The position numbers and the translations under genes were made by a program. This document shows positions 16,269-59,100 of a DNA stretch of 64,000 nt, piece after piece. This DNA is from Perkinsus marinus ATCC 50983 (lineage: Eukaryota; Perkinsozoa; Perkinsida; Perkinsidae), in the NCBI RefSeq assembly GCF_000006405.1, contig NW_003208445.1, forward strand, positions 43,932 through 107,931, given 5' to 3'. Below the pieces are notes generated by a model. The model saw only the letters and a program-made list of their open reading frames with translations, was not told the origin of the DNA and did not search any database. The stretch's first letter is position 1; every line of letters begins with the position of its first letter.

Positions 16269-17444
16269 TCAGGTGGAATCTTCGTCACTATCATCAATGA
16301 GCAACATGAGTGATCGCTTAGTAAGCAGACGTGTACCCGGTGTTGTGTATCGTAAAATGGCGTGACTTCTCCATCCGCCAGCCTGCATGATTATAGAGGC
16401 TGGGACTCTCTGAGTAACCAAGTCTCGAGCATGCCCTCTGCGGAAAGCATGTGCTGTGTAGGAAGCTGGGTTCGGACACCCGCAGTGTTGGAGGTGAAAT
16501 CGTACTCGAGAGATGAACTGTGAGAATGTTAAGCCAACGATGAGAGGCTCGGTGGATAAGAGGGATCTATTGCCCCGTAAGTAATGAAAGGCCACTACAG
16601 GGCAGGCTTGAGGTGCTTTGTCACAGGTACACCGTAACTGGATCGAGTGTCCCGAAGGCCAATTCTTCCGCCTACGGAAGTTGATGTACATGCATTGACC
16701 GCGAGGGGAAAGCAGAACATCAGATATCCGGAGTGAGAAGAGTTCAGATTGAACTCTAGTTAAGGCCTGGTAAGCTAACACAGCAATCGCTCTGGAAGTG
16801 AAGTCTTGTGTAGATTCCATGGATGCCAATAGAAGATCCATGAATGGGGCTGTGATAGCTAGGCGAGGCCGAGAAGAAGAGGCCCTATGGCGACGAAGAG
16901 ATAACATAATCGCAGACAACACCTCGTCGTGCTCTAATCGGAGGTAGCCTAACAACCTATGTATCTTTTTCACTGCCGCCAGATACGTATGAGCTGTACG
17001 TGGATTAGCGAAGGATGAGAGCCAAAGTGCCAACCGTGCAGAGTCAGCAGGGAAGTCTGCCACGTTACAAGACAGGATGACGTTGAGCTCGTGGTTGAAG
17101 CGGCTCCAGCTAGAGATGGCAGTGGAGTACGATGATCTAGTAGAGGGCGCTAGGGAGCATAGCAATGTCTCGACAATCTGTAGTAGGACATGTGGATAAT
17201 CAGAAGGTGAGTGTAGAACTCCATGCAACCACGTAGAGGCGGCAGCTGGGGTTTTTGCTGGTTCTAATAGGCGATGATCGCCCCGAAGAAGAGAGGCCAC
17301 AGTCGGAAGGATAGAATCGGTCGACGAGAAGGCTTGCCTCCAATCTTGGGCTGCCAACATCTGTAAGTACGATGAGGATTGTAAGAGGGATAAAAATGAG
17401 CGGTGAACTCTTATGCAGCTCTCCCGAAGATCCGGACATAACAC
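16269..17444 (-). CDS. tyrosine recombinase of the retrotransposon
   Basis: A 391-residue intronless ORF expected to integrate the circular cDNA. An N-terminal SAM-like core-binding region (about residues 85-170, including SSYSTAISSWSRFNHELNV) precedes the catalytic domain. Catalytic residues can be placed: Arg230 in YQALTRVQSELFSL, His332 and Arg335 in the HAFRRG box, Trp358 in GGWRSH at the His/Trp position, and the nucleophile Tyr366 in ILRYT. All are present, so the protein should be active. It follows the Gag-like ORF by about 185 bp and ends upstream of the A-B-A repeats, the usual terminal position of YR in DIRS-order elements. Confidence 0.92.
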   Translation of the reverse strand: MLCPDLRESCIRVHRSFLSLLQSSSYLQMLAAQDWRQAFSSTDSILPTVASLLRGDHRLLEPAKTPAAASTWLHGVLHSPSDYPHVLLQIVETLLCSLAPSTRSSYSTAISSWSRFNHELNVILSCNVADFPADSARLALWLSSFANPRTAHTYLAAVKKIHRLLGYLRLEHDEVLSAIMLSLRRHRASSSRPRLAITAPFMDLLLASMESTQDFTSRAIAVLAYQALTRVQSELFSLRISDVLLSPRGQCMYINFRRRKNWPSGHSIQLRCTCDKAPQACPVVAFHYLRGNRSLLSTEPLIVGLTFSQFISRVRFHLQHCGCPNPASYTAHAFRRGHARDLVTQRVPASIIMQAGGWRSHAILRYTTPGTRLLTKRSLMLLIDDSDEDST

Positions 17445-17629
17445 AACAGATGAAGAGCGGGCAGGATACCTACATCGACCACAAGTGGTCGAACCGAATA
17501 GGGGATATGATAGAAGTAGGTCAGAATTGCCCTTACAGGTTCAAGACTAATAAAGGTACCCCCGGAGCGGCCGCGGCAGAGCACTGAGGATACCCCACTA
17601 AGGGAGGAGGATAACTTTGAACATAATCA

Positions 17630-18307
17630 CTACGACTTCTTAGTAGTAGATGGGGCCGATGTGCCGGTATCAGCTTGTTTCCACCCCTTCCAATCTTTGT
17701 CATTTTTAGACCATGAATACCAGTCGTCATAAGGGGCACTCCTGTACTGTTGTCTATAGTTATAGTTGTAGTTGGTAGCACCGAAGTAGCGTCTCGGTTT
17801 AAATTGCGTGGTAGCTTTGCGTTGGGAGCTATCTAGCCGCTGCTTACATTCAAATGCTGTCAGGTTATTGAACTCTTTGATGGCAATGTCCACAGCAGGC
17901 TTACCCATGGACAATTCAATCGCAGCTTTAGCCGTTTGGTGACGATGATATGACAGAGCTACAGCCGTACCGTATAAATCGGCACAGTGCATGGTTGCAG
18001 CTACGTGGCTCAAGAGGAGACCTCTGGGTAAAGAACATATTAGAGAACCAGCCGTTACCCATTTGATCAAGGTAACACCCAGCAGAGCTAAGCGATTGGG
18101 TATACGGACTGTGGAGGCTTTTTTGTTCAGAGCATCTACCGATTTGAAAGCCGAAGAAGAACTGCTACCTTGAATCTGAACGATGTCCTCTTGACCGAGA
18201 AAGTCCTCAATGTCCGTAGACAAGAAATCCGTTTCCGCATTAGGTTTATTCAGGAAACGGTGGAACAACGTAATTGACGGGACTAAGGTGGGATCGATAC
18301 CGACCAA
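17630..18307 (-). CDS. Gag-like protein of the retrotransposon
   Basis: At least 225 residues from the first ATG. The frame stays open upstream to about 18476, giving roughly 55 more residues (beginning AQDPGIPQPPTTG) with no ATG. It ends in a basic, aromatic tail rich in Tyr, Asn, Lys and Trp (YNYNYRQQYR, WYSWSKNDKDW), as in many Gag-type RNA-binding C-termini; no CCHC knuckle is present. The identity is inferred mainly from position and composition. It lies between the RT and YR ORFs, whereas Gag normally precedes RT. The internal A repeat ends cagtttag exactly where the open frame begins, so the first residues could be supplied by splicing. Confidence 0.6.
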   Translation of the reverse strand: MVGIDPTLVPSITLFHRFLNKPNAETDFLSTDIEDFLGQEDIVQIQGSSSSSAFKSVDALNKKASTVRIPNRLALLGVTLIKWVTAGSLICSLPRGLLLSHVAATMHCADLYGTAVALSYHRHQTAKAAIELSMGKPAVDIAIKEFNNLTAFECKQRLDSSQRKATTQFKPRRYFGATNYNYNYRQQYRSAPYDDWYSWSKNDKDWKGWKQADTGTSAPSTTKKS

Positions 18308-18476
18308 CTGTGCATGTGCTAGGCGTTCTGTGAGGAAAGCTTGACCCTCCTTAGCAGAGGCTCCCTCCTGGAGGTCTTTGCCTTGAGCGAGAAGAGTTAA
18401 GACTTGGTGTAGAACATGCTCAGGAGGAGCCGAATCCCCTGTAGTAGGAGGCTGAGGTATGCCAGGATCCTGAGCC

Positions 18477-18566
18477 TAAACTGACCGTCGCTCCTACAAC
18501 GATGGGGGAGCAGAGCTCAGGTCAGTCGACCTCCTACATACCAGAGTAGGAGGACGGTGATCTCCC
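18477..18566 (-). repeat. 90-bp repeat A, internal copy between RT and Gag-like ORFs
   Basis: Identical by eye to the two terminal A copies but located in the middle of the element, which is not part of the standard split-repeat design. Confidence 0.95.
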
Positions 18567-18668
18567 ATCAAGATTGAACTGAGTAGGATCGAGCTTGACC
18601 CAAACCAATAACTATAGTATTAGTGATGATAAGGAGGGGCGATCTAGGCCCTGACTAAGAAGTGGTAC

Positions 18669-20885
18669 TTATTGATCAGATAGCAAGAATGAAGGTTGAG
18701 AGACTCGACAGCGATGCCATGTACAGCATTCCGACCATCTCATACGAGAAGGAGCATCAGCGGGGTTACTATGGGAACGAATATATTGAAACCAAATGTT
18801 CAGATTATGGTCGAGAATGAAACTCCATAATCTACCACACCATTGGTTAAGTAGAGGTTGGCTGGCGCTCCCTCTGCGTATGATATGCTTGACACACTGA
18901 GAATCCGTAAACAGAACAATAGGAATGTTATGTGTAGAACTAAGGTGACCAAAAGTAGCTAGAGACGCACACACAGCGAAAAATTCAAAGAAATGAATAA
19001 GCTGTGAGCATCGTGGGAGAATTGGTCTAATCCAATCAGGTATCACATCTGCGAAGTACCAGATACCCGCGGGAGACACACAGACTCCAGCGAAGCCACC
19101 ATGTTCGCCCTCTGCATCGGCATATAGGACAAGAGGACGGAGCTGGCTATCTAGCTCCCGAACCGATACGGAGCGGGTCTGGGCCCGAGCATGCTGTGTA
19201 GACGCAGGCTCTGTTGACAAGAGGGTATCCAAGAAGCGATGAATATCTCGTAGAGCTGACGATATCTCGGGCTGTGAGACTTCTACTGTGTACGTCGACC
19301 TAATTAAGGTGCGTATCTGCGATCGAAGTGCTCGCCCTCGTACTATACTGCACGCGAAAGCAAGCTTGCCGATGACTTTACGTGCATGAGCACTACCACC
19401 AAAATCGTCAACTGAGAGGAGGTCCTCGACACTACTAAGCAACGGCTGCAACTTCTCAGCTGAGAGACTCAATGAAACCATCGTGGGATCAGACAAGTTC
19501 AAGTCGATCCCAAGAATTGTAGCGTTGGCAGAGGGTTGAATCTCTTTCTCTGTCTTTAGCTGAAGACCACACAACTTGTTGAGTTCTTTCACATAGTTGA
19601 ATGTGTCATCACACGATGTCAACCAATCAAGCCCAATAAAATCATCCAGATATGAAATAAGGGGAATCCCCAGTAGAACTCTACAGATATGGGTCATGAG
19701 GCTGGACAACCGTAAGTAGTTGGTAACGGAAGAGACCGCACCAAACGGACATACCGTATGGTAGAAACCGAAGTATTGTTGTTGAGTTGTATTCCAAAGC
19801 AATACATTCGATAGATGGCGATGTTCCGGGCGGATGGGAACTTGTCTATAAGCGTCTTTATGATCTAATTTAAACACCCGGAGTGCTGGTAGCTGACCAG
19901 AGACCTTAGCCGCCGATGGAATGGGAAGTGATTCCCAAAGTGCTTTTATGGTGGCACAAACGGTAGAAACATCCGGCAATGTGATTTTATGGCCCACAGA
20001 TGTGGCCTGATTGATAAATGAACGGCGATAATCATCAACCGGACGAACTTTAGAAGGTGACACGACGACATGTCGCATCGTGGACCCCGGAACAGGAGTA
20101 GCATGAGTCAACTCCTGAATAGAAAAGGGACCCAAGAGGCGCCCGGAAGCCGTCTCCTGCTCAGCCATACTCCACAGCAGATCTGCCTGCTGAACGGAAG
20201 GTGTTGAGGGATGTTTCAGCTGGGTCAGGCGAGCCTTTGAATGCTTTTCTAATTCCTCCAAAGTGAGCAGGGGTCGGGTCGTCTTTTCGACGGGAGCAAA
20301 CAACGAACCTCCTACTGTCAAATTGCCCACTAGCGGAACGCCGCCGTGAGTACGGAGTTCATCAATAAAGGCCTTGTCTGGATAGTCCGTAATATGTGCT
20401 AGGAAGGCAAGGAATGGGAGATTCAGTTGTTTGCAACAAGTAGGGAGCTTTCTAGCCCATTCCCCTTGAAGAGGTGAGAGAATAGACTGTATTCGACGTA
20501 AAGTCTGCATAATGTGGTCTCGCCGAGAACGAATCCACAACGGCTCACAGGCCCCGCGGGCCGCCACCGATACTGCTGAGAGTAAGGAATCCGGAAGAGG
20601 GGGTGATTCCCATTGCGGTAAGTCCTGTGGATTCACTTCACGCATGTATTGAATGTGTTCTCGTGGTGACCACGAATCATTGATATGAAAGGACCATTCC
20701 AGTCTAGCATGACGCATCTTAGCGCTCTCGTAATAGTGCCGTAAGGCATGAGAAGAGTTCACTTCCGACCCCTGGCATCTGGCCAAAGGAGTTAGGAGAG
20801 GTAAGGAGAAACCTCCAAACCGAAGTCCGTAGGGACTGTCACGAGGCTTGAAGCCACTCGGCCGAGGCCGTGGTGCGTGAGGCAT
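18669..20885 (-). CDS. reverse transcriptase / RNase H polyprotein of the retrotransposon
   Basis: A 738-residue intronless ORF. RT motifs include FKLDHKDAYRQVP (first catalytic Asp), FGAVSSVTNYLR, and the YLDD box at residues 412-415 (19641-19652). An RNase H domain follows: LVLYADAEGEHGGFAG (first Asp), FEFFAVCASL (Glu), VLFTDSQCVKHIIRRG (Asp) and the end HSNPADAPSR (Asp). This matches DIRS/Ngaro RT-RH proteins and lacks protease and DDE integrase domains. The start is the first ATG (MPHAPRPRPSG), about 340 bp downstream of the 5' repeat B. No stop or frameshift is visible. Confidence 0.93.
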   Translation of the reverse strand: MPHAPRPRPSGFKPRDSPYGLRFGGFSLPLLTPLARCQGSEVNSSHALRHYYESAKMRHARLEWSFHINDSWSPREHIQYMREVNPQDLPQWESPPLPDSLLSAVSVAARGACEPLWIRSRRDHIMQTLRRIQSILSPLQGEWARKLPTCCKQLNLPFLAFLAHITDYPDKAFIDELRTHGGVPLVGNLTVGGSLFAPVEKTTRPLLTLEELEKHSKARLTQLKHPSTPSVQQADLLWSMAEQETASGRLLGPFSIQELTHATPVPGSTMRHVVVSPSKVRPVDDYRRSFINQATSVGHKITLPDVSTVCATIKALWESLPIPSAAKVSGQLPALRVFKLDHKDAYRQVPIRPEHRHLSNVLLWNTTQQQYFGFYHTVCPFGAVSSVTNYLRLSSLMTHICRVLLGIPLISYLDDFIGLDWLTSCDDTFNYVKELNKLCGLQLKTEKEIQPSANATILGIDLNLSDPTMVSLSLSAEKLQPLLSSVEDLLSVDDFGGSAHARKVIGKLAFACSIVRGRALRSQIRTLIRSTYTVEVSQPEISSALRDIHRFLDTLLSTEPASTQHARAQTRSVSVRELDSQLRPLVLYADAEGEHGGFAGVCVSPAGIWYFADVIPDWIRPILPRCSQLIHFFEFFAVCASLATFGHLSSTHNIPIVLFTDSQCVKHIIRRGSASQPLLNQWCGRLWSFILDHNLNIWFQYIRSHSNPADAPSRMRWSECCTWHRCRVSQPSFLLSDQ

Positions 20886-21220
20886 GGAATGCCAGGAGGG
20901 GTTACCGAAGTAACAAGGGCTTAAATATGACCAGTCGTTCAGAAGCTACCCTCCGAGAGGGGGGGAACCCCCGAGCCTCGAGCCAACTCAGTTCAAGGTG
21001 TGCTAAACAAGCTCTGTTGGCTTGGCTAAGATGAGGCTCTAACCCACACGGTACTAAAACACGTAACACTTACGAGAAGGAAACAATCAAATGCGATACC
21101 GCTGGATCGCCACAGCTAGGCGGCACAGCGGGGAGGGAACAGAAAGAGCCCCTACCTAAGCAGGGTAGAACTGCCTGAAGGAACCACTCTAAAGAAGCTA
21201 CAGCAAGGCAGCCTCGTTAG

Positions 21221-21888: not shown

Positions 21889-24305
21889 ATGGCAAACAGA
21901 GTGCCTGTAGAGGATCTCAAGCAAGAACTCCTTGCATGGTAGTAGCCGACACTCGGTGATCCTTGGAATCACATACTAGTTCCCACCTAGCTGGAGGAGT
22001 CTACAGAGTTATCATAGTACGATTAGGATTATTCTCTTAACAGGTACCTGAGTAGTTTGAAACTATCAGTAATACCGAATCCAGTGAGTCCATCCGATTT
22101 CGATATTGGTTCTCCCATCGTAACATCATCTGAACCGGATTTCCATATACTTGATGGAACCCCAGATGATGGTAAAACCACACCTCAGCCACCAGAGGAA
22201 ACTGGTAATGGCGAAATATGGCTGCGACAACTCCATTATAACTTGCTCAATATCGTTATGTCTCGGTGGTGTTTTTCAGAGTCTCCGCCACCATCAACGC
22301 CTCCGACCCCATCTGAGTCTATCTCTGATCGGTCCTCACAAGTGGCACAACTCTCACAGGATACAGATTCCGCCAAAAAGTTGGCTCTCGTCCTGGACCT
22401 CGATCATACATTGGTTAATGCCGTCCCACAGGTAGGCCCACGACTGTGTATGATAATGATGATACATGGTATTCACAGCCTCCTACTATGCCGCGGTATC
22501 CCGACAGAGTAGTCGAAGCCTTGGGCATAGATTTGCATCAGACGGAGCTCCCGATGCAGACTGGGAAGGAGCCTCATTTCGTCAAGTTACGGCCCGGTAC
22601 GTTATAGCTCGTCTTTGCAGTACGATCAGTTGGTATGTTGATCAGGTGTACATCAGTTCTTGGAAGCACTACAACCGATGTACGAGTTCTATATCCATAC
22701 TAAGGCTACGAGAGTGTATCTTGAATATGTGATGGAGGTAACGAAGTCACTTACGGTGTGTAATCCACAATATTGATGACTAGGCTCTTGATCCGCACAA
22801 GAAAGGCTTCTTCCGAAATGATAATGTATTCTCCCGTTGCGACGATATGAAACACGGGTCGAATGAAAACAAGGACATACGAGCGGTATGTTCCCGGCCT
22901 AGGGAGGAGGTTATCATCCTCGATGATAAGTATGGCGATTCGGAGATCTCATTTGGGATGAGGATTCAACTTTCAGGGATAAAATATGGTTAGACTTCCA
23001 ACCCAACGTCATCAAGTGCCCACCATATAAATATATGGACCAGAAACTACTCCAAGTCGTTCGAGCCCTCAAACAAACATCGGACTGGATAAAGGAGGGC
23101 GGCCCGGAGAGCGGATACCCTAAACCGGAATTGGATGATGCGTCAAAGAACTTCGATGGGTGAGTTGCATCACATTCTGATCACCTCCTTCCTCGTGGTG
23201 TTTTTTTAACTCAACCTCATGAGCAACTGTCTTTGGAGGAAGGGCGCTTATCCCTCAAGTCTCCATCACTTGAAATGTGCAAGTAGTTTCACGTGAATTC
23301 AGTGTTCAAACCGGACGGGGCTAAGCCGAGTCTGTGGAGTTATCACTTATCTGTTGCGATCGATGGATAATGAAGCCTTCCAGATACCTCCCTGCCATGG
23401 TTCGAGTCTTCACCGAGATCCATCATCGATATTGCAAGGCTTTGGTAGATGCAGCTGGTGATGGTTTCGTTGTTGATGTTAAAAACGTCATCGATGATAC
23501 TCGGAAGCAGACCTTCAAGAACTGCCGCATCATGCTCACTGGTAGTAGTAGTCGTATGGGTTTTTGTAAATCCACATTGCGGAACTGTCTTCATAGGGTT
23601 CAACCAGAATGAGGCATCCGAACGAGCTGAGATGATCGAAATGTACGGCGGCACAGTTATCAACAATGTGGAAGATGAACCAACTCATTTGGTCTGTGCT
23701 AAAGGCGGTACTGCTAAGGTACGTCAACCCCCGAGTCGAAAGCATCTAGATGAACCTTTTTAGTGTCACCTGATAGCAAAGGCAATGAAGGAGGATTCGT
23801 TAAAATGCAAGATTGTCCATCCATGTTGGTTGGATCATGGCTTCGCTACATGGAAACATCCTAGTGAATTCATATTCGAGGTGAGTGTATGTACTGCAAT
23901 TTCAGTGGCTTGTTACTCACGAGTTGTGAATCGTCAAGGATAGTGATCCACTGTGGATAAGCATCGAATTAACCTAAGGAAATTTTTGCTAAATTCGTAG
24001 TATTTGTTGCCGCGAGGCATGATATTGAGAATGCTAGTCGCGTTGCTGCATGTTAGATAATAGCTGCATTCTTGTTATCGACGACCCCATTTTATGACGA
24101 ATCTTATTTGTTGTTTCAGATTGGCAAATTTACTGCGGATCCTCGGACAGGACAGTATCCTGTTATGGATCATTTCTTCGTGAAGTACTTAGCCGATGCC
24201 CATGAGAAGATGGAAGAGAGAGCACATCGAAAGCGACGGGACGTAACTAATTCCAATAACAAAATAAATCAACAGCAGCAAGAACCACCAGTTTTAGATG
24301 TATAA
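21889..24305 (+). CDS. FCP1: FCP1-type RNA polymerase II CTD phosphatase with BRCT domain
   Basis: Dephosphorylates the RNA polymerase II C-terminal domain. It starts MANRVPVEDLKQELLAW and is spliced to YLSSLKLS. A Pro/Ser-rich linker leads to the catalytic motif ALVLDLDHTLVNAV (nucleophile and acid Asp of the DxDxT phosphatase fold). Next come the FCPH-like segment HQFLEALQPMYEFYIHTKAT, VIILDDKYGD with the third-motif Asp pair, and NVIKCPPYKYM. The C-terminal BRCT domain is split by introns: NCRIMLTG, then AEMIEMYGGTVINNVEDEPT, THLVCAKGGTAK and KIVHPCWLDHGFATWKHPSE. It stops with TAA at 24303-24305. One oddity: just after NAVPQ (about 22430) the conserved frame continues in another phase without a clean intron, which may be a sequencing indel or an unrecognised splice. 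Confidence 0.87.
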
Positions 24306-24666: not shown

Positions 24667-26803
24667 TTACCCGAAACTGCCATGCACTAGAGAGGTATCA
24701 AGACCAGACTCTCGAGGCTCCGCGGATCCAACGAGGGGCTCACTCCCCGATGTCCACCACTCGTAAGACACTCGTACCTAATGAGAAATAAATAGGTACA
24801 TGGATGCACCTCTTGCACTCACCTGGATGTTAGGGAATGATCGACGGAATTGTTGAATTGCATAAATACAGGATAGACAAGGAAAATGTGATACATGCAA
24901 ATGAAGCCAACCAACTTCACTGTTGTCAGATAGGAAATTGGCAACACCATTGAGAGCAGATATCTCTGCATGGGTTGATCGATCATTCATAAGGTATAAC
25001 CCTGTGAAAGGCTCTCGTCGGTGACCTTCACTGAATTCACCGACAAACTCATCGTTGGTATCTTCAAAGCTGCACATCATTTGGGACCCGCCTCTGACGA
25101 CGAACACTCTCGTGTCTGTATCACCGATAGTTAGCTCGACTTCACAAGTGATGAATTTAGCGATGGGTTGTCGGAGGCCTCGATCCGTTCGCGTGATGTA
25201 TCGCGGAACATAAGGAGCATGATGAACCCCTAATGCTTCCAATAGTCTACCAGTACTAATCGGACCCACATGGCACACAGTCAATGTTGATTCTATCCGT
25301 TTTGAAGGATCGTCGCTCAAATATGTTATTAATTCACTCACATCGGGCTCACAAGGCATGTCTCTTTCTGGCACACCCGCGAGGGATGCGGAATCCCATA
25401 GCATCACTGAGTCTGCGAGAACCGGGTTGGTGCCAAATTCATCTCCGGTATCGACGTCCGACTGGAGCTTTCGTTGCTGCTGATTATAATAGCGTTTAAC
25501 GCAGTCCTGTATGAGCATCCTAGCGTCTCTCGATAACGCGTCACGAGATCCAAAACCGATGGCCAAAGCCCAAGAGAATTTAGGGAGATCGTTGACATCT
25601 ATCCGTACCGAGAGGGCTTGGAGCTCATCGATGAAGCCACTGAAGTTACCAACAGTCCTCGCAAGCGACCATACAATGAGAACGACGTCTCCTGATGGAG
25701 CTGTCGAGTCAGTAAGCAAATATGAGAGCACCAGCCCAGCTCTCTCAGGACTGACTGGGTTAGATGCTGTGAGAGCTGCGAGCCGTGAGATCGACCAGAG
25801 CAGCATCGCCAGGCTTCGAGATGTGGGTCGGATGGATAGGCTTGAAATTGTGATATTGGAGAGGAGGTCGGCGAGCTGAAGAGAGGACGACATACTCGTA
25901 ATTTTCGTACAGGTCTCACCTGAGGAATCCTCCATTCGAGCAGATTGGATGGAGCCAATGTCGCGAAGGCATGTGCTGCACTGGCCAACTTCATCAGCTC
26001 CGATGCAGTATACTTGAACCATGAATTCACCATCTTGGGGAACCTCAGGAGCACTTCATCAATTCTCGAGAGCGTCATAACTAATGATAACATTTGTATA
26101 TGACTACGTACAGGGAGTAGGCACCTCCTATGGCCTTGATATCCGCTAGAGTGCGGAGGACGAGGAGATCTAGAGTTCCATCCTGCTCATCAAGCGAAGT
26201 ATTGTCAAGGTAAGCCACTATAAGCATTTGAGCGACGCTTCGAATGTGCCTGTAAAAAGAGGCTTTAGTAACCCAGGGCAAGTGGTACATGACTCACTGT
26301 CTTGGACCAGAGAGAGCAATCATCTTGCATAGCGCTGGGACATCCCATCTCACGAGTATTCCCCGCTCGATCAGGAGCCACAGGAAATGATCAACTGCCG
26401 CATCATCATCATCATTGCACTTCGTTAATGCGGAGAGTATACAGAGAATATCTTTTGGGGCATCAAGGTAGGATACACATTCGACCGCACTCGGAAGGAT
26501 TCTCTTAGCATGTGGTTGCATCCCCTCCAACATGAGCTGTCGAATGAGCTCAGTCTGGTCTCTAAAGGTTAGCGAGTCGGGCAGGTGAGCCAATGCATTC
26601 ACAGTGACTTCTTGTGGTGCTCCAAGCCTCATGCCTAGCGTGAGCAGCTGAGTAAACACACCAGGGGAGAGGCCAGGACAGAGTGCTGCATGAATAGCCT
26701 CAGTAGCCAGGGGAACATCAACCATGGCCAGTGGTTCAGGCATGCGGAGGCGTTTACGCAGTAGCTTGAGGAGAAGGGATGGTGGCCTCATCGTGAGGGA
26801 CAT
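24667..26803 (-). CDS. helical-repeat protein fused to a C-terminal cytidine-deaminase-fold domain
   Basis: Starts MSLTMRPPSLLLKLLRKRLR at 26803 and is spliced by introns near 26250-26297 and 25876-25920 and one near 24781-24826. The N-terminal two-thirds is all-helical with repeated Leu/Trp motifs such as LAMLLWSISRL, VVLIVWSLAR and LPKFSWALA, reminiscent of FASTK/RAP, OPR or HPR organellar RNA-binding repeats. The C-terminus has a deaminase fold: strands in FITCEVELTIGDTDTRVFVV, the HAE zinc and proton-shuttle box in STHAEISAL (24964-24972), the second zinc pair in HFPCLSC (24868-24882), then FRRSFPNIQ joined to VRVSYEWW. Both zinc motifs are complete. The stop is TAA at 24667-24669. By analogy with plant PPR-DYW proteins, I infer an organellar C-to-U or A-to-I RNA editing factor; no substrate can be read from the sequence. 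Confidence 0.75.
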
Positions 26804-27108: not shown

Positions 27109-29199
27109 TCAAACGCGAGAAGTCTTGCTCAAGTCTACAATAAGAGCACCGATTGCTCCAACATATCCCTCATGTTGGAGGAAGAGGACTTCTACTGGAT
27201 CACCGAGCCCAATAGAGGATGGTGGTAGAGCTGGTGTTGGCGCTAAGAAGGCAAGTCACTACATCATCCTATAAGCAGTGTATGATTGTTACATTTATCA
27301 TGACTACGTAAAGGTATAGGCAGGGTCATTGTAGTGGCATTGCATGTACCATCTTCACTTGCTTCAACTGATGATTGATGAATAAACCATCGAGCAATCA
27401 TCGTCCCGAGATGCAGCACCATACCTGGAGGCGGCCTTATATGGTCCGTCTGTCTATTCTGTTCTTGTGGTTGCCCCCATTGTTGATACCATTCGACTGC
27501 ATAGCTGAACAAGGAGGATAAGGATACGAATGACTTCACTCTCCTAGGCTTACCTAATGCTGGCCATCGTCGGCTCGTGCTTGTTGACGTATTTCCCTAA
27601 CCAACTGGTGATAACCAAACAGCCACCAATACGATGAGTCTATATCCTACCACTACAAAAGATAGTTCTGCACTTGTTGATTTTGGCAACCAGGTAAGAT
27701 ATGTAGCCTATGTTATAAGAGACCATTTGTATGAGGGATTGTGCTAGGTCCTCTCTAGCTGGCCGGGGACGCCCAACCTCACTAGCTGTGAACCCAGCAC
27801 ACAAGTTCCCTGACGATAAGTCCGGATGATGAGAAGTGTGGCCGCCTTCACCTCCACCTGGCAGCTCGTTTCCTTCTTTTGCTGTGGTCCTCGGACGGTC
27901 TGTTACAAAGAGTTTGCCCATAGAGCTAGCCAATGTATCATCTGACCACATGCCGTGCTCAGATCCAGGTTGGGTACCCATAAGATCACCAACTGAGAGA
28001 TCTGACCGACGGGCATCTCCCCACCTGAACCAAGGGTGATAATAGAAACAACGGTGCGGGTTCAAGCTCACCGGCTCAACTCGATGATCTCTTCAAAACT
28101 CTGGGCATTGAACATAAGAGAGCCGAGACCGAGTACCTACATAGTATCACATGGTACACTAACAACAACAACAACTCCACGACACGATCATCATGATCAT
28201 CTTTACGATAGCTCGCTATAATGACAACACCACTGGCTCCAACAACGGACAGATAATACTTGTGCTATCCCTCTTACCGTTCCTCCGCCTACTGATGTCC
28301 CCGACACACGCTGGTACTTACCAGGGCCCTCAACTTTTAATATAGATACACCCGATCCTGAACATGATGATGATGATCTAGAGGCAATACCATCACAAAG
28401 GATCACGGCGACAGCAGCAGCAGTAGCAGCCTACCTATGTTACATAGGAGGAAAGGGAAGAAGCCTCTGCCTTCGACACCCTCCATAGCACTAGTATCTA
28501 TCACTTGACGTCGTTTATGTTTAATGTTATATTGGAATAAGGAACCATCAGTATTGAGAAGTAGCGACAAGCCGCTGAGGAGGAGGAGGAGGCAAGCATG
28601 GGCATTCGAGAGGTGCTCCAGTAGTAGGAGTACCTCACTAGACTGTCCATTTCATCAACCTTAACGATATCAGCATCTAACCGTTCACGTATCACAGACG
28701 CGAACTTCACAGCACCACCTCCTACATGGTAAAGGGTAGCTGCAAGAAGGAGGAGTAGGGGTTTACCACTTACCAGTAGCTCGTATAGTAGGCCTGGGTA
28801 GTGTACCCAGAGGATAATGCTCCAACACTACGAGCTCGAGGAATGCCATCTTACAACAACAACATGTCGATGATTCAAGGCAGAGAGTTACTTACCGTAG
28901 TGCTTAGCTGACCTTCTCGACTGGAGAATAGGAAGAAAGCAAGAGACTTGCCACTAGATGTCTTCAGAGATCTCTCATCTCGACTCACTGAGAGCCCCGC
29001 TGCCTTAACACGTTCCACTGAGAGGGGTATCAATGTAGACCTTCTAGTCAGTGAATACGACCAGGCTGGCCTCACTACCTGGTATTCTATCCTCAACACA
29101 GGCGACCTTTGCAAGTGTCCCTCCAATATCAAGGGCTAGCCAATCAATTACCTCATAGGAGCGTCGATCACCACCACCATCGCCTCCACTACACCTCAT
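27109..29199 (-). CDS. PANK: eukaryotic (type II) pantothenate kinase
   Basis: Catalyses ATP-dependent phosphorylation of pantothenate, the first committed step of coenzyme A synthesis. Exon 1 (from ATG at 29199) has the ASKHA phosphate-1 motif in WLALDIGGTLAKVACVE. Later exons give KSLAFFLFSSREG, the GGGA-KF type segment FASVIRERLDADIVKVDEM with its catalytic-region Glu, GSGVSILKVEGPGKYQRV, and RVSGTSVGGGTVRGI with the conserved SGTS-GGGT loop. The last exon ends VEVLFLQHEGYVGAIGALIV, a hallmark PanK C-terminus, before TGA at 27109-27111. The gene contains about ten short introns. Order and identity of motifs match human PANK1-3 throughout. No broken motif was seen, though some central exons are hard to join exactly by eye. 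Confidence 0.9.
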
Positions 29200-57911: not shown

Positions 57912-57942
57912 GTAGGGCTCTGCGTCCACTGTCGCGGGTATT

Positions 57943-59100
57943 GTGCAGAGCCATGGTACCCGAACGAGTCATTCTGACCAAAGGAACCTGAATGCTGTAA
58001 GGACACGGCTAGCTCGTGCAAGTCGCAAGAAAATTCAGCTGCCTGACTTCCGAGTTGATCCGGTGGAGCATTACAAGCAGTTTGTGGAGCATGCAAAAGA
58101 GACCGAGGCATCGGATGTGCCCAACGAGCCCAGATTCCTACTCCACTATGATGCTGAGGATCCTCTTATGATATGGGCGTGTGACAGGAATATGCAGCTC
58201 ATCAATAAGGCCGATACTATGATCTTCGATGGGACATTTTATATCGCCCCAAAAAATTGGTCACAAGTGTGGATTGGTATGATTGCAGTGGAAGGATGGT
58301 ATATACCCGTATTTTATGCATTGATGAAGCAGAGGACCCAGGAAGAATATGAGAGGGTACTCAACATTATCCAACGGTACCTGATCCAACTGCAGCTATT
58401 TGACGTAGCTAGACTGTTGGACTATATTACTGATTTTGAAACTCCTATGAGAGCTGCATTGAAGAAGGTATTTAGCTTCCATGAATCCCAGCTTTTGGGC
58501 TGCTTATTCCATCTATGCAAATCCTGGATAAGGAAGATCCAGGATCTAGGACTTCAGACAGCTTACTGGACGCCGAAGCCAACCCGTGATGCCATCGGAC
58601 GGTGGTTACACCTACTCTGTGGTCTTCCATGGATGACAGTAGAAGAATGCAGTGCCTCCTGGAGTGTAGTGAAGGCCGATAAACCAGCAAATGACGCCAT
58701 CGACAAGCTGATATACTATATTGACACAACATATATGGGTTCTGGGGCCTTATTTCCACCAACTCAATGGTGCCGACCTCCGAGCAACGATAATCATTCT
58801 CAGAGAACCAGCAATCCTCTTGAAGGACATCATCGGGATCTTAATTCGAAGCTGGTGAAGAAGAATCCCGGAGTGGTGGACTTTGTGAAGATTCTAAAAT
58901 ACTCGCAGGGCAAATCCCGAACCAAAATGAACAGTGTCGATCTCGGCGAGTCTCCTCCTGCCTCCAGGAGCAATGAACAGCGACGTCTCCTTCACTACCA
59001 GTCCTGGAAGAGGCCAATGTCAGATGGCATCGGTATCTCGTTGTTTGACTATCTTGAGCGTGTCAGTGAGCTGTGTGGCGTAAAGGAGAGCATGATTTGA
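57943..59100 (+). CDS. Mutator-like (MULE) DDE transposase
   Basis: 385 residues, intronless. The catalytic RNase H-fold core can be read: first Asp in MIFDGTFYIAP (Asp96), the segment WYIPVFYALMKQRTQEEYER, second Asp in YITDFETPMR (Asp164), the MULE C/H signature in LLGCLFHLCKSW (Cys187 and His190), and the third acidic residue in RTSNPLEGHHRDLNSKL (Glu294). These match the MULE transposase domain used by Mutator, FLYWCH-MULE and FAR1-like proteins. No frame break is present. Ends TGA at 59098-59100, followed by a GGCACC hairpin 200 bp downstream. Confidence 0.92.
   Translation: MQSHGTRTSHSDQRNLNAVRTRLARASRKKIQLPDFRVDPVEHYKQFVEHAKETEASDVPNEPRFLLHYDAEDPLMIWACDRNMQLINKADTMIFDGTFYIAPKNWSQVWIGMIAVEGWYIPVFYALMKQRTQEEYERVLNIIQRYLIQLQLFDVARLLDYITDFETPMRAALKKVFSFHESQLLGCLFHLCKSWIRKIQDLGLQTAYWTPKPTRDAIGRWLHLLCGLPWMTVEECSASWSVVKADKPANDAIDKLIYYIDTTYMGSGALFPPTQWCRPPSNDNHSQRTSNPLEGHHRDLNSKLVKKNPGVVDFVKILKYSQGKSRTKMNSVDLGESPPASRSNEQRRLLHYQSWKRPMSDGIGISLFDYLERVSELCGVKESMI

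Follow-up and report, generated by a model that had tools for sequence, protein, structure and literature searches.

Plant organellar RNA editing factors of the PPR-DYW type (PF14432) combine, in one protein, organellar-type helical repeats with a C-terminal HxE/CxxC zinc deaminase (PMC12787238). Helical-repeat proteins of the HPR/RAP and FASTK kinds occur in alveolate mitochondria, and 19 RAP proteins are credited to Perkinsus marinus (PMC8190603). Here, a gene on the minus strand of a 64,000-nucleotide stretch of P. marinus ATCC 50983 DNA (the window; contig NW_003208445.1, positions 43,932 to 107,931) is described, which joins predicted alpha-helical repeats to a deaminase core with an intact, conserved zinc motif. 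A preliminary description of the window had placed the gene and both zinc motifs exactly, and its observation that a helical-repeat protein and a deaminase-fold domain are fused in one gene is confirmed, the solenoid being predicted by a structure model. The gene seems to parallel the plant factors by independent assembly, in a group reported to be without mitochondrial mRNA editing. The analogy to PPR-DYW drawn in that description holds for the layout, the parts seeming to be others: the Perkinsus repeats look HPR/FASTK-like, the protein has no DYW end (its last three residues are SFG, those of the P. olseni orthologue P0001 KPV), and no mitochondrial editing is reported in Perkinsus. DYW membership was rejected on the lack of a DYW end and of any PF14432 match, this family being absent among the ten Pfam families matched by the window protein at E<=10. 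PF14432 also gave no matches in the organism's own genome (54.5 Mb assembly, 347 contigs), a weak result in that no control genome matched.

The gene runs from an ATG at 26803 to a TAA ending at 24667, and its four introns of 48, 44, 44 and 45 nucleotides are all of the GT-AG type under the predicted splicing. It is presumably nuclear-encoded. Its parts are as follows (all on the minus strand; aa, amino acids; PSSM, position-specific scoring matrix).

24667..26803, minus: complete coding sequence of 651 aa in 5 exons, from predicted splicing and orthologous proteins
26298..26803, minus: exon 1, predicted splicing
26125..26249, minus: exon 2, predicted splicing
25920..26080, minus: exon 3, predicted splicing
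24823..25875, minus: exon 4, rear half of the solenoid and the bulk of the deaminase domain, predicted splicing
24667..24777, minus: exon 5, strand 4 (VRVSYEWW) followed by a variable tail, predicted splicing
26735..26788, minus: basic amphipathic stretch, aa 6-23, RPPSLLLKLLRKRLRMPE, possibly a targeting presequence
25303..26719, minus (introns within the range): alpha-solenoid, aa ~29-455, from the P. olseni orthologue model and fold matches
25947..26000, minus: HPR-like helix A, aa 238-255, PSSM score 4.3
25771..25824, minus: HPR-like helix A, aa 282-299, TSRSLAMLLWSISRLAAL, PSSM score 15.3
25645..25698, minus: HPR-like helix A, aa 324-341, PSGDVVLIVWSLARTVGN, PSSM score 4.9
24757..25272, minus: deaminase core, aa 466-622, helix-strand-strand-helix-strand-helix-strand, from Pfam, the structure model, and PDB-sequence and fold searches
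24964..24972, minus: HAE zinc/catalytic motif, aa 566-568
24868..24882, minus: PCLSC zinc motif, aa 596-600

The P. olseni models P0001 and P0002 and the P. chesapeaki model P0003 each join both halves as well, and a reading as two separate genes is therefore unlikely. Into exon 5 the window protein is matched by P0001 (VRVSYEWWT), and not by P0002 and P0003. Two longer C-termini are possible by alternative splicing, neither of which resembles any orthologue.

The deaminase fold of the C-terminus is supported by profile searches. The ten families in the Pfam search of the window protein are all deaminases and all lie within residues 552-620, led by BURPS668_1122 (PF14424, E 3e-5), SNAD4 (6.6e-5) and NAD1 (4.6e-4) and followed by PF00383 (5.3e-4), APOBEC2 (1.3e-3), APOBEC_N (2.1e-3) and four more at 0.028 to 0.1; the filters of this search drop most matches above E 0.1. 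In the orthologues the models rank differently, with PF14424 at 2.5e-4, PF00383 at 3.9e-4 and SNAD4 at 4.3e-4 for P0001, SNAD4 at 0.002 and PF14424 at 0.019 for P0002, and SNAD4 at 0.0037 and PF00383 at 0.024 for P0003, for which PF14424 is not listed at E<=1. NCBIfam gave the window protein a single weak match, ComEB at 0.018. The two zinc motifs, in the spacing HAE-x27-PCLSC, are identical in all four sequences (the window protein, both P. olseni models and that of P. chesapeaki). When all six frames of the window were scanned, the pattern H[AVCPT]E-x(20-45)-PCxxC matched once, in the present gene, and it matched once in total across 60 first-order Markov windows; the zinc motif alone is therefore modest evidence.

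Searches against PDB sequences brought up APOBEC3H-type chains at 0.13 with the single protein, at 0.0083 with a four-sequence profile, and at 7.2e-5 with a profile of the C-terminal domain that included an in-genome relative on contig C154, a value perhaps slightly favoured, as the relative was picked for matching the same domain. The nearest structures and PDB sequences of the core are APOBEC3H/3G, and the best fold match, made with a partial, low-confidence domain model, is AID/APOBEC. The core is thus nearest AID/APOBEC by fold and PDB-sequence search, and by Pfam the BURPS668_1122, AID/APOBEC and PF00383 models lie close together. With AID/APOBEC proteins (SNAD4, NAD1, APOBEC3H) it shares HxE and PCxxC at matching spacing; in contrast to them, the window protein ends soon after strand 4, has a long solenoid and comes from an alveolate. 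AID/APOBEC proteins are said to have been found in algae by Krishnan et al. in 2018. BURPS668_1122 is the best-scoring Pfam model for the window protein, P0001 and the C154 relative, and the C-terminal position is common to both; however, the window protein has no toxin delivery domains (no toxin trafficking family in Pfam at E<=10), and its gene is intron-containing, conserved and presumably nuclear. Since the curated cut-offs of both sets of models are missed, the protein is called APOBEC-like rather than a member.

A further single-chain deaminase of similar length, also with nucleic-acid-binding parts, is the LmjF.36.5940-like clade, which is reported from kinetoplastids, stramenopiles, chlorophytes and Perkinsus (PMC12064671, citing Iyer 2011). 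That clade, however, is described as a CDD/CDA-like branch with CCCH zinc fingers, and no solenoid is mentioned in the available portion of the same article. No family of the clade is among the ten Pfam families of the window protein at E<=10, and the fold and motif of the gene point to another branch, the clade being compared by its description only. In the literature found on Perkinsus deaminases and RNA editing, as far as its accessible text goes, the fusion is not described, although an earlier mention is possible, for example in the Iyer 2011 survey.

The structure matches of the solenoid are led by solenoids of the mitoribosome and of the trypanosome RESC. Over the first 19 of 24 predicted helices, the distance from the start of a helix to that of the second next has a median of 36 and a mean of 38.7 residues; with the HPR/RAP proteins (tandem repeats of about 37 residues) and FASTK proteins that alveolates have in their mitochondria, Leu/Trp helical repeats ~36-44 residues apart and a possible N-terminal presequence would be features in common. 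In the window protein the N-terminus has a hydrophobic moment of 0.53, with six K/R and one D/E among the first 25 residues. An 18-residue helix motif, derived from another protein and adopted after a repeat profile of the C154 relative had failed, was scanned over the whole protein, and the sum of its four best places was reached by none of 2000 shuffles, which were made from the protein minus its last 150 residues; one of the four places (468) is the start of the deaminase part, outside the solenoid. Two folded controls were used: a protein that by eye was judged Vps11-like gave a sum of -7.7, and the kinase part of P0003 gave -3.1. Helix motif and spacing give moderate support for the view that the solenoid includes some FASTK/HPR-like Leu/Trp helices. 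In the Pfam search at E<=10 the window protein matched no PPR family, which degenerate PPRs can escape, and no RAP family; the deaminase stands where the RAP domain of an HPR/RAP protein would be.

The closest relatives in the protein database are from P. olseni and P. chesapeaki. Searches of that database, through which alone dinoflagellates were covered, returned Perkinsus only. Identity between the window protein and the three orthologue models is 51-65%, and none of the four catalytic residues varies among them. In the P. marinus genome a second copy of the gene lies on contig C157, at 96% identity in its two largest pieces, and the surrounding region (58000-67500, L010) is collinear with the window over 9.5 kb at 96.3%, non-coding DNA included, so that the copy is most simply the other haplotype. 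Between the copies there are 38 synonymous and 22 non-synonymous differences; the proportions are 0.080 (pS) and 0.015 (pN), and their ratio of 0.19 therefore indicates constraint on the protein (purifying selection). Exon 2 of the C157 copy has a one-base gap, which is due to an error of the assembly or else marks a null allele. P0003 carries a pantothenate kinase part, and a real fusion with this kinase was rejected as a probable annotation join, because the kinase is the upstream neighbour in the window (a Fumble exon, 2.3e-14, at 27643-28092 on the minus strand, directly upstream), P0003 is without the N-terminus of the deaminase gene, and P0001 and P0002 list no kinase family.

The relative on contig C154 (L009 1990-3849, minus) is a distinct gene, found by a search of the own genome at E 0.0037. 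Its 590-aa reading frame, with no evident introns, encodes Leu/Trp repeats and a C-terminal deaminase-fold domain. Its helix-motif sum of 74.7 was reached by none of 2000 shuffles, and its C-terminal domain is matched by PF14424 at 1.1e-3 and by a profile of the orthologues at 7.4e-5 (best of 5000 shuffles 1.1); with hhalign, 56 columns of the domain were aligned at 1.2e-5 (probability 81). A protein database search with it gave no relative. The active site is lost, EPD standing for HAE and PCVSS for PCLSC, so that zinc should not be held in the usual way. PF14424 matches the genome three times at E<=10, in the window gene, its C157 copy and C154. PF00383 matches it six times: three matches are over the cut-off, a weak one lies elsewhere, and the window gene and the C157 copy account for the other two. 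A separate repeat protein of 663 aa is encoded on contig C281 (L013 475-2466, minus), with nine LW-type helices and weak FAST_1 and DUF1601 matches; PF08373 is absent from its family list, and its motif VEADGPSHF we take to be RAP-like.

The window gene is tentatively read as encoding a nuclear-encoded, solenoid-guided, zinc-dependent cytidine deaminase whose target is more likely a non-mRNA or non-organellar RNA, a reading that we favour with somewhat less than even confidence. The repeats would bind a specific single-stranded RNA and set one cytidine into the pocket, where HAE and PCLSC would hold zinc and the glutamate would shuttle a proton, converting C to U; the action would be like that of PPR-DYW factors, built from other parts. 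The protein may work in the mitochondrion, the usual place of such solenoids, with which its basic amphipathic N-terminus is consistent. Since mitochondrial mRNAs are reported to be unedited, the target would more likely be an rRNA fragment, an imported tRNA or RNA elsewhere in the cell. The available text of PMC3101222 names no rRNA fragments or tRNAs in its comparison, and nuclear transcripts are outside its scope. For the mitochondria of Perkinsus, PMC9550989 reports that UGA is read as tryptophan, that the DNA is without tRNA genes and that rRNA fragments number 23 across four species; the part of it available mentions no DNA/RNA comparison for these fragments. The same source reports two nuclear Trp-like tRNAs with the anticodon TCA, which leave tRNA editing possible and not needed for UGA; editing of tRNA-Trp as a requirement of UGA decoding was set aside.

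A more specific version is that Perkinsozoa have a base editor of their own with a programmable-looking guide, in which a toxin/APOBEC-type deaminase has taken the RAP place of a mitochondrial HPR protein and acts on rRNA fragments of the mitochondrion or on tRNAs imported into it; this we consider doubtful. In these mitochondria UGA stands for tryptophan and the reading frame shifts 18 to 19 times, and such an editor could, for example, adjust decoding there. It would then parallel PPR-DYW without being related to it, and could lead to the enzymes behind editing in dinoflagellates. A functional precedent would be the C-to-U deaminase that acts on tRNA-Trp in the mitochondria of Trypanosoma brucei, by which an imported tRNA is reportedly edited to read UGA. 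If RNA is indeed deaminated, editing factors of the solenoid-plus-deaminase kind would have at least two origins, from parts that are unrelated, and an enzyme for organellar editing would exist in a lineage believed to have none. The compact natural fusion would be of interest for targeted C-to-U editing. It would also offer a concrete sequence to seek in dinoflagellates, whose published editing candidates (PPR-DYW-like, ADAR-like) the texts available describe as contentious or incomplete (PMC5357065; PMC12787238).

Several observations weigh against the solenoid-guided deaminase. Every Pfam deaminase score of the window protein is below the curated cut-off (bits against cut-off: PF14424 24.6/29.6, SNAD4 23.4/27, NAD1 20.8/27, APOBEC2 19.2/26.8, APOBEC_N 18.6/25), and the best match of P0002 is the general PF00383 model (4.9e-4). 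The structure model of the deaminase domain is poor (mean predicted local distance difference test, pLDDT, 48.6; blocks of 43-64 for residues 541-600 in the full model), and the VIA Z is <8. Only ~28 residues, varying between species, follow strand 4, so that the protein seems to lack the helix 4 and strand 5 that full APOBECs have. Among the repeats, 2 of 2000 shuffles reached the strongest single helix score of 15.3, and with a 38-position profile of the C154 repeats the window protein did no better than shuffles (E 0.79; best shuffle 0.14), P0003 giving 0.16. The lost active site of C154 implies that the fold can persist without catalysis. In Perkinsus, cob and cox1 cDNAs are reported to equal the DNA (PMC3101222), and RNA-seq, cDNA clones and assembled transcripts are reported without differences from it (PMC9550989).

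The deaminase fold could instead serve today as a binding module, in an organellar RNA or mitoribosome factor where it holds RNA without deaminating it. The C154 relative, which keeps repeats and domain with HAE changed to EPD and PCLSC to PCVSS, would fit such a module, as would the mitoribosome and RESC solenoids at the top of the structure matches and the lack of reported mitochondrial edits in Perkinsus. However, a binding module need not keep the four catalytic residues, which are invariant in the window protein and the three orthologue models, and we regard it as unlikely.

An APOBEC3-like defence enzyme that mutates the DNA or RNA of viruses or transposons, its repeats serving to contact proteins or to bind nucleic acids loosely, is improbable. 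APOBEC3H/3G as nearest structures and PDB sequences, a bacterial toxin deaminase as best Pfam model, and the presence in the window of a retroelement with a recombinase and of a MULE transposase all speak for it; but defence enzymes of the APOBEC3 type typically evolve fast, against the strong constraint seen here (pN/pS 0.19), and the HPR-like repeats point to organellar RNA.

That the protein deaminates adenosine (TadA-like) or tRNA, or acts on free nucleotides, is likewise improbable and no better placed. HAEI.AL and PCxxC do resemble TadA and dCMP deaminase, PF00383 matches the window protein at 5.3e-4 and stands second for P0001 and first for P0002, ComEB appears at 0.018, and dCMP and nucleoside deaminases appear low in the PDB-sequence searches. 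Against this, APOBECs come ahead of nucleoside deaminases when PDB sequences and folds are searched, PF00383 exceeds its cut-off at three other places of the genome, and we know of no nucleotide enzyme with a long solenoid. A Trypanosoma deaminase with a nucleic-acid-binding motif, reported to be cytosolic and to shift nucleotide pools (PMC12064671), would be a parallel in favour of a nucleotide enzyme.

Least probable by far is the C-to-U editor of mitochondrial mRNAs (cob, cox1, cox3) suggested in the preliminary description, for which the PPR-DYW-like architecture and the editing in dinoflagellate relatives can be cited, but which is contradicted, for the material studied, by the published DNA/RNA comparisons in Perkinsus, where the available text reports no edits (PMC3101222; PMC9550989); this covers part of what the preliminary description named as refuting.

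The window also holds mobile elements. At 16269-20945 (minus) is a retroelement in which a reverse transcriptase (4e-5, below cut-off) adjoins a phage-integrase-type recombinase (1.3e-6), which we take to be the arrangement of DIRS-like elements, and a MULE transposase domain (1.4e-7) lies at 57916-59100 (plus). Downstream of the deaminase gene, on the opposite strand, is a BRCT domain (3e-6) at 23449-23760 (plus).
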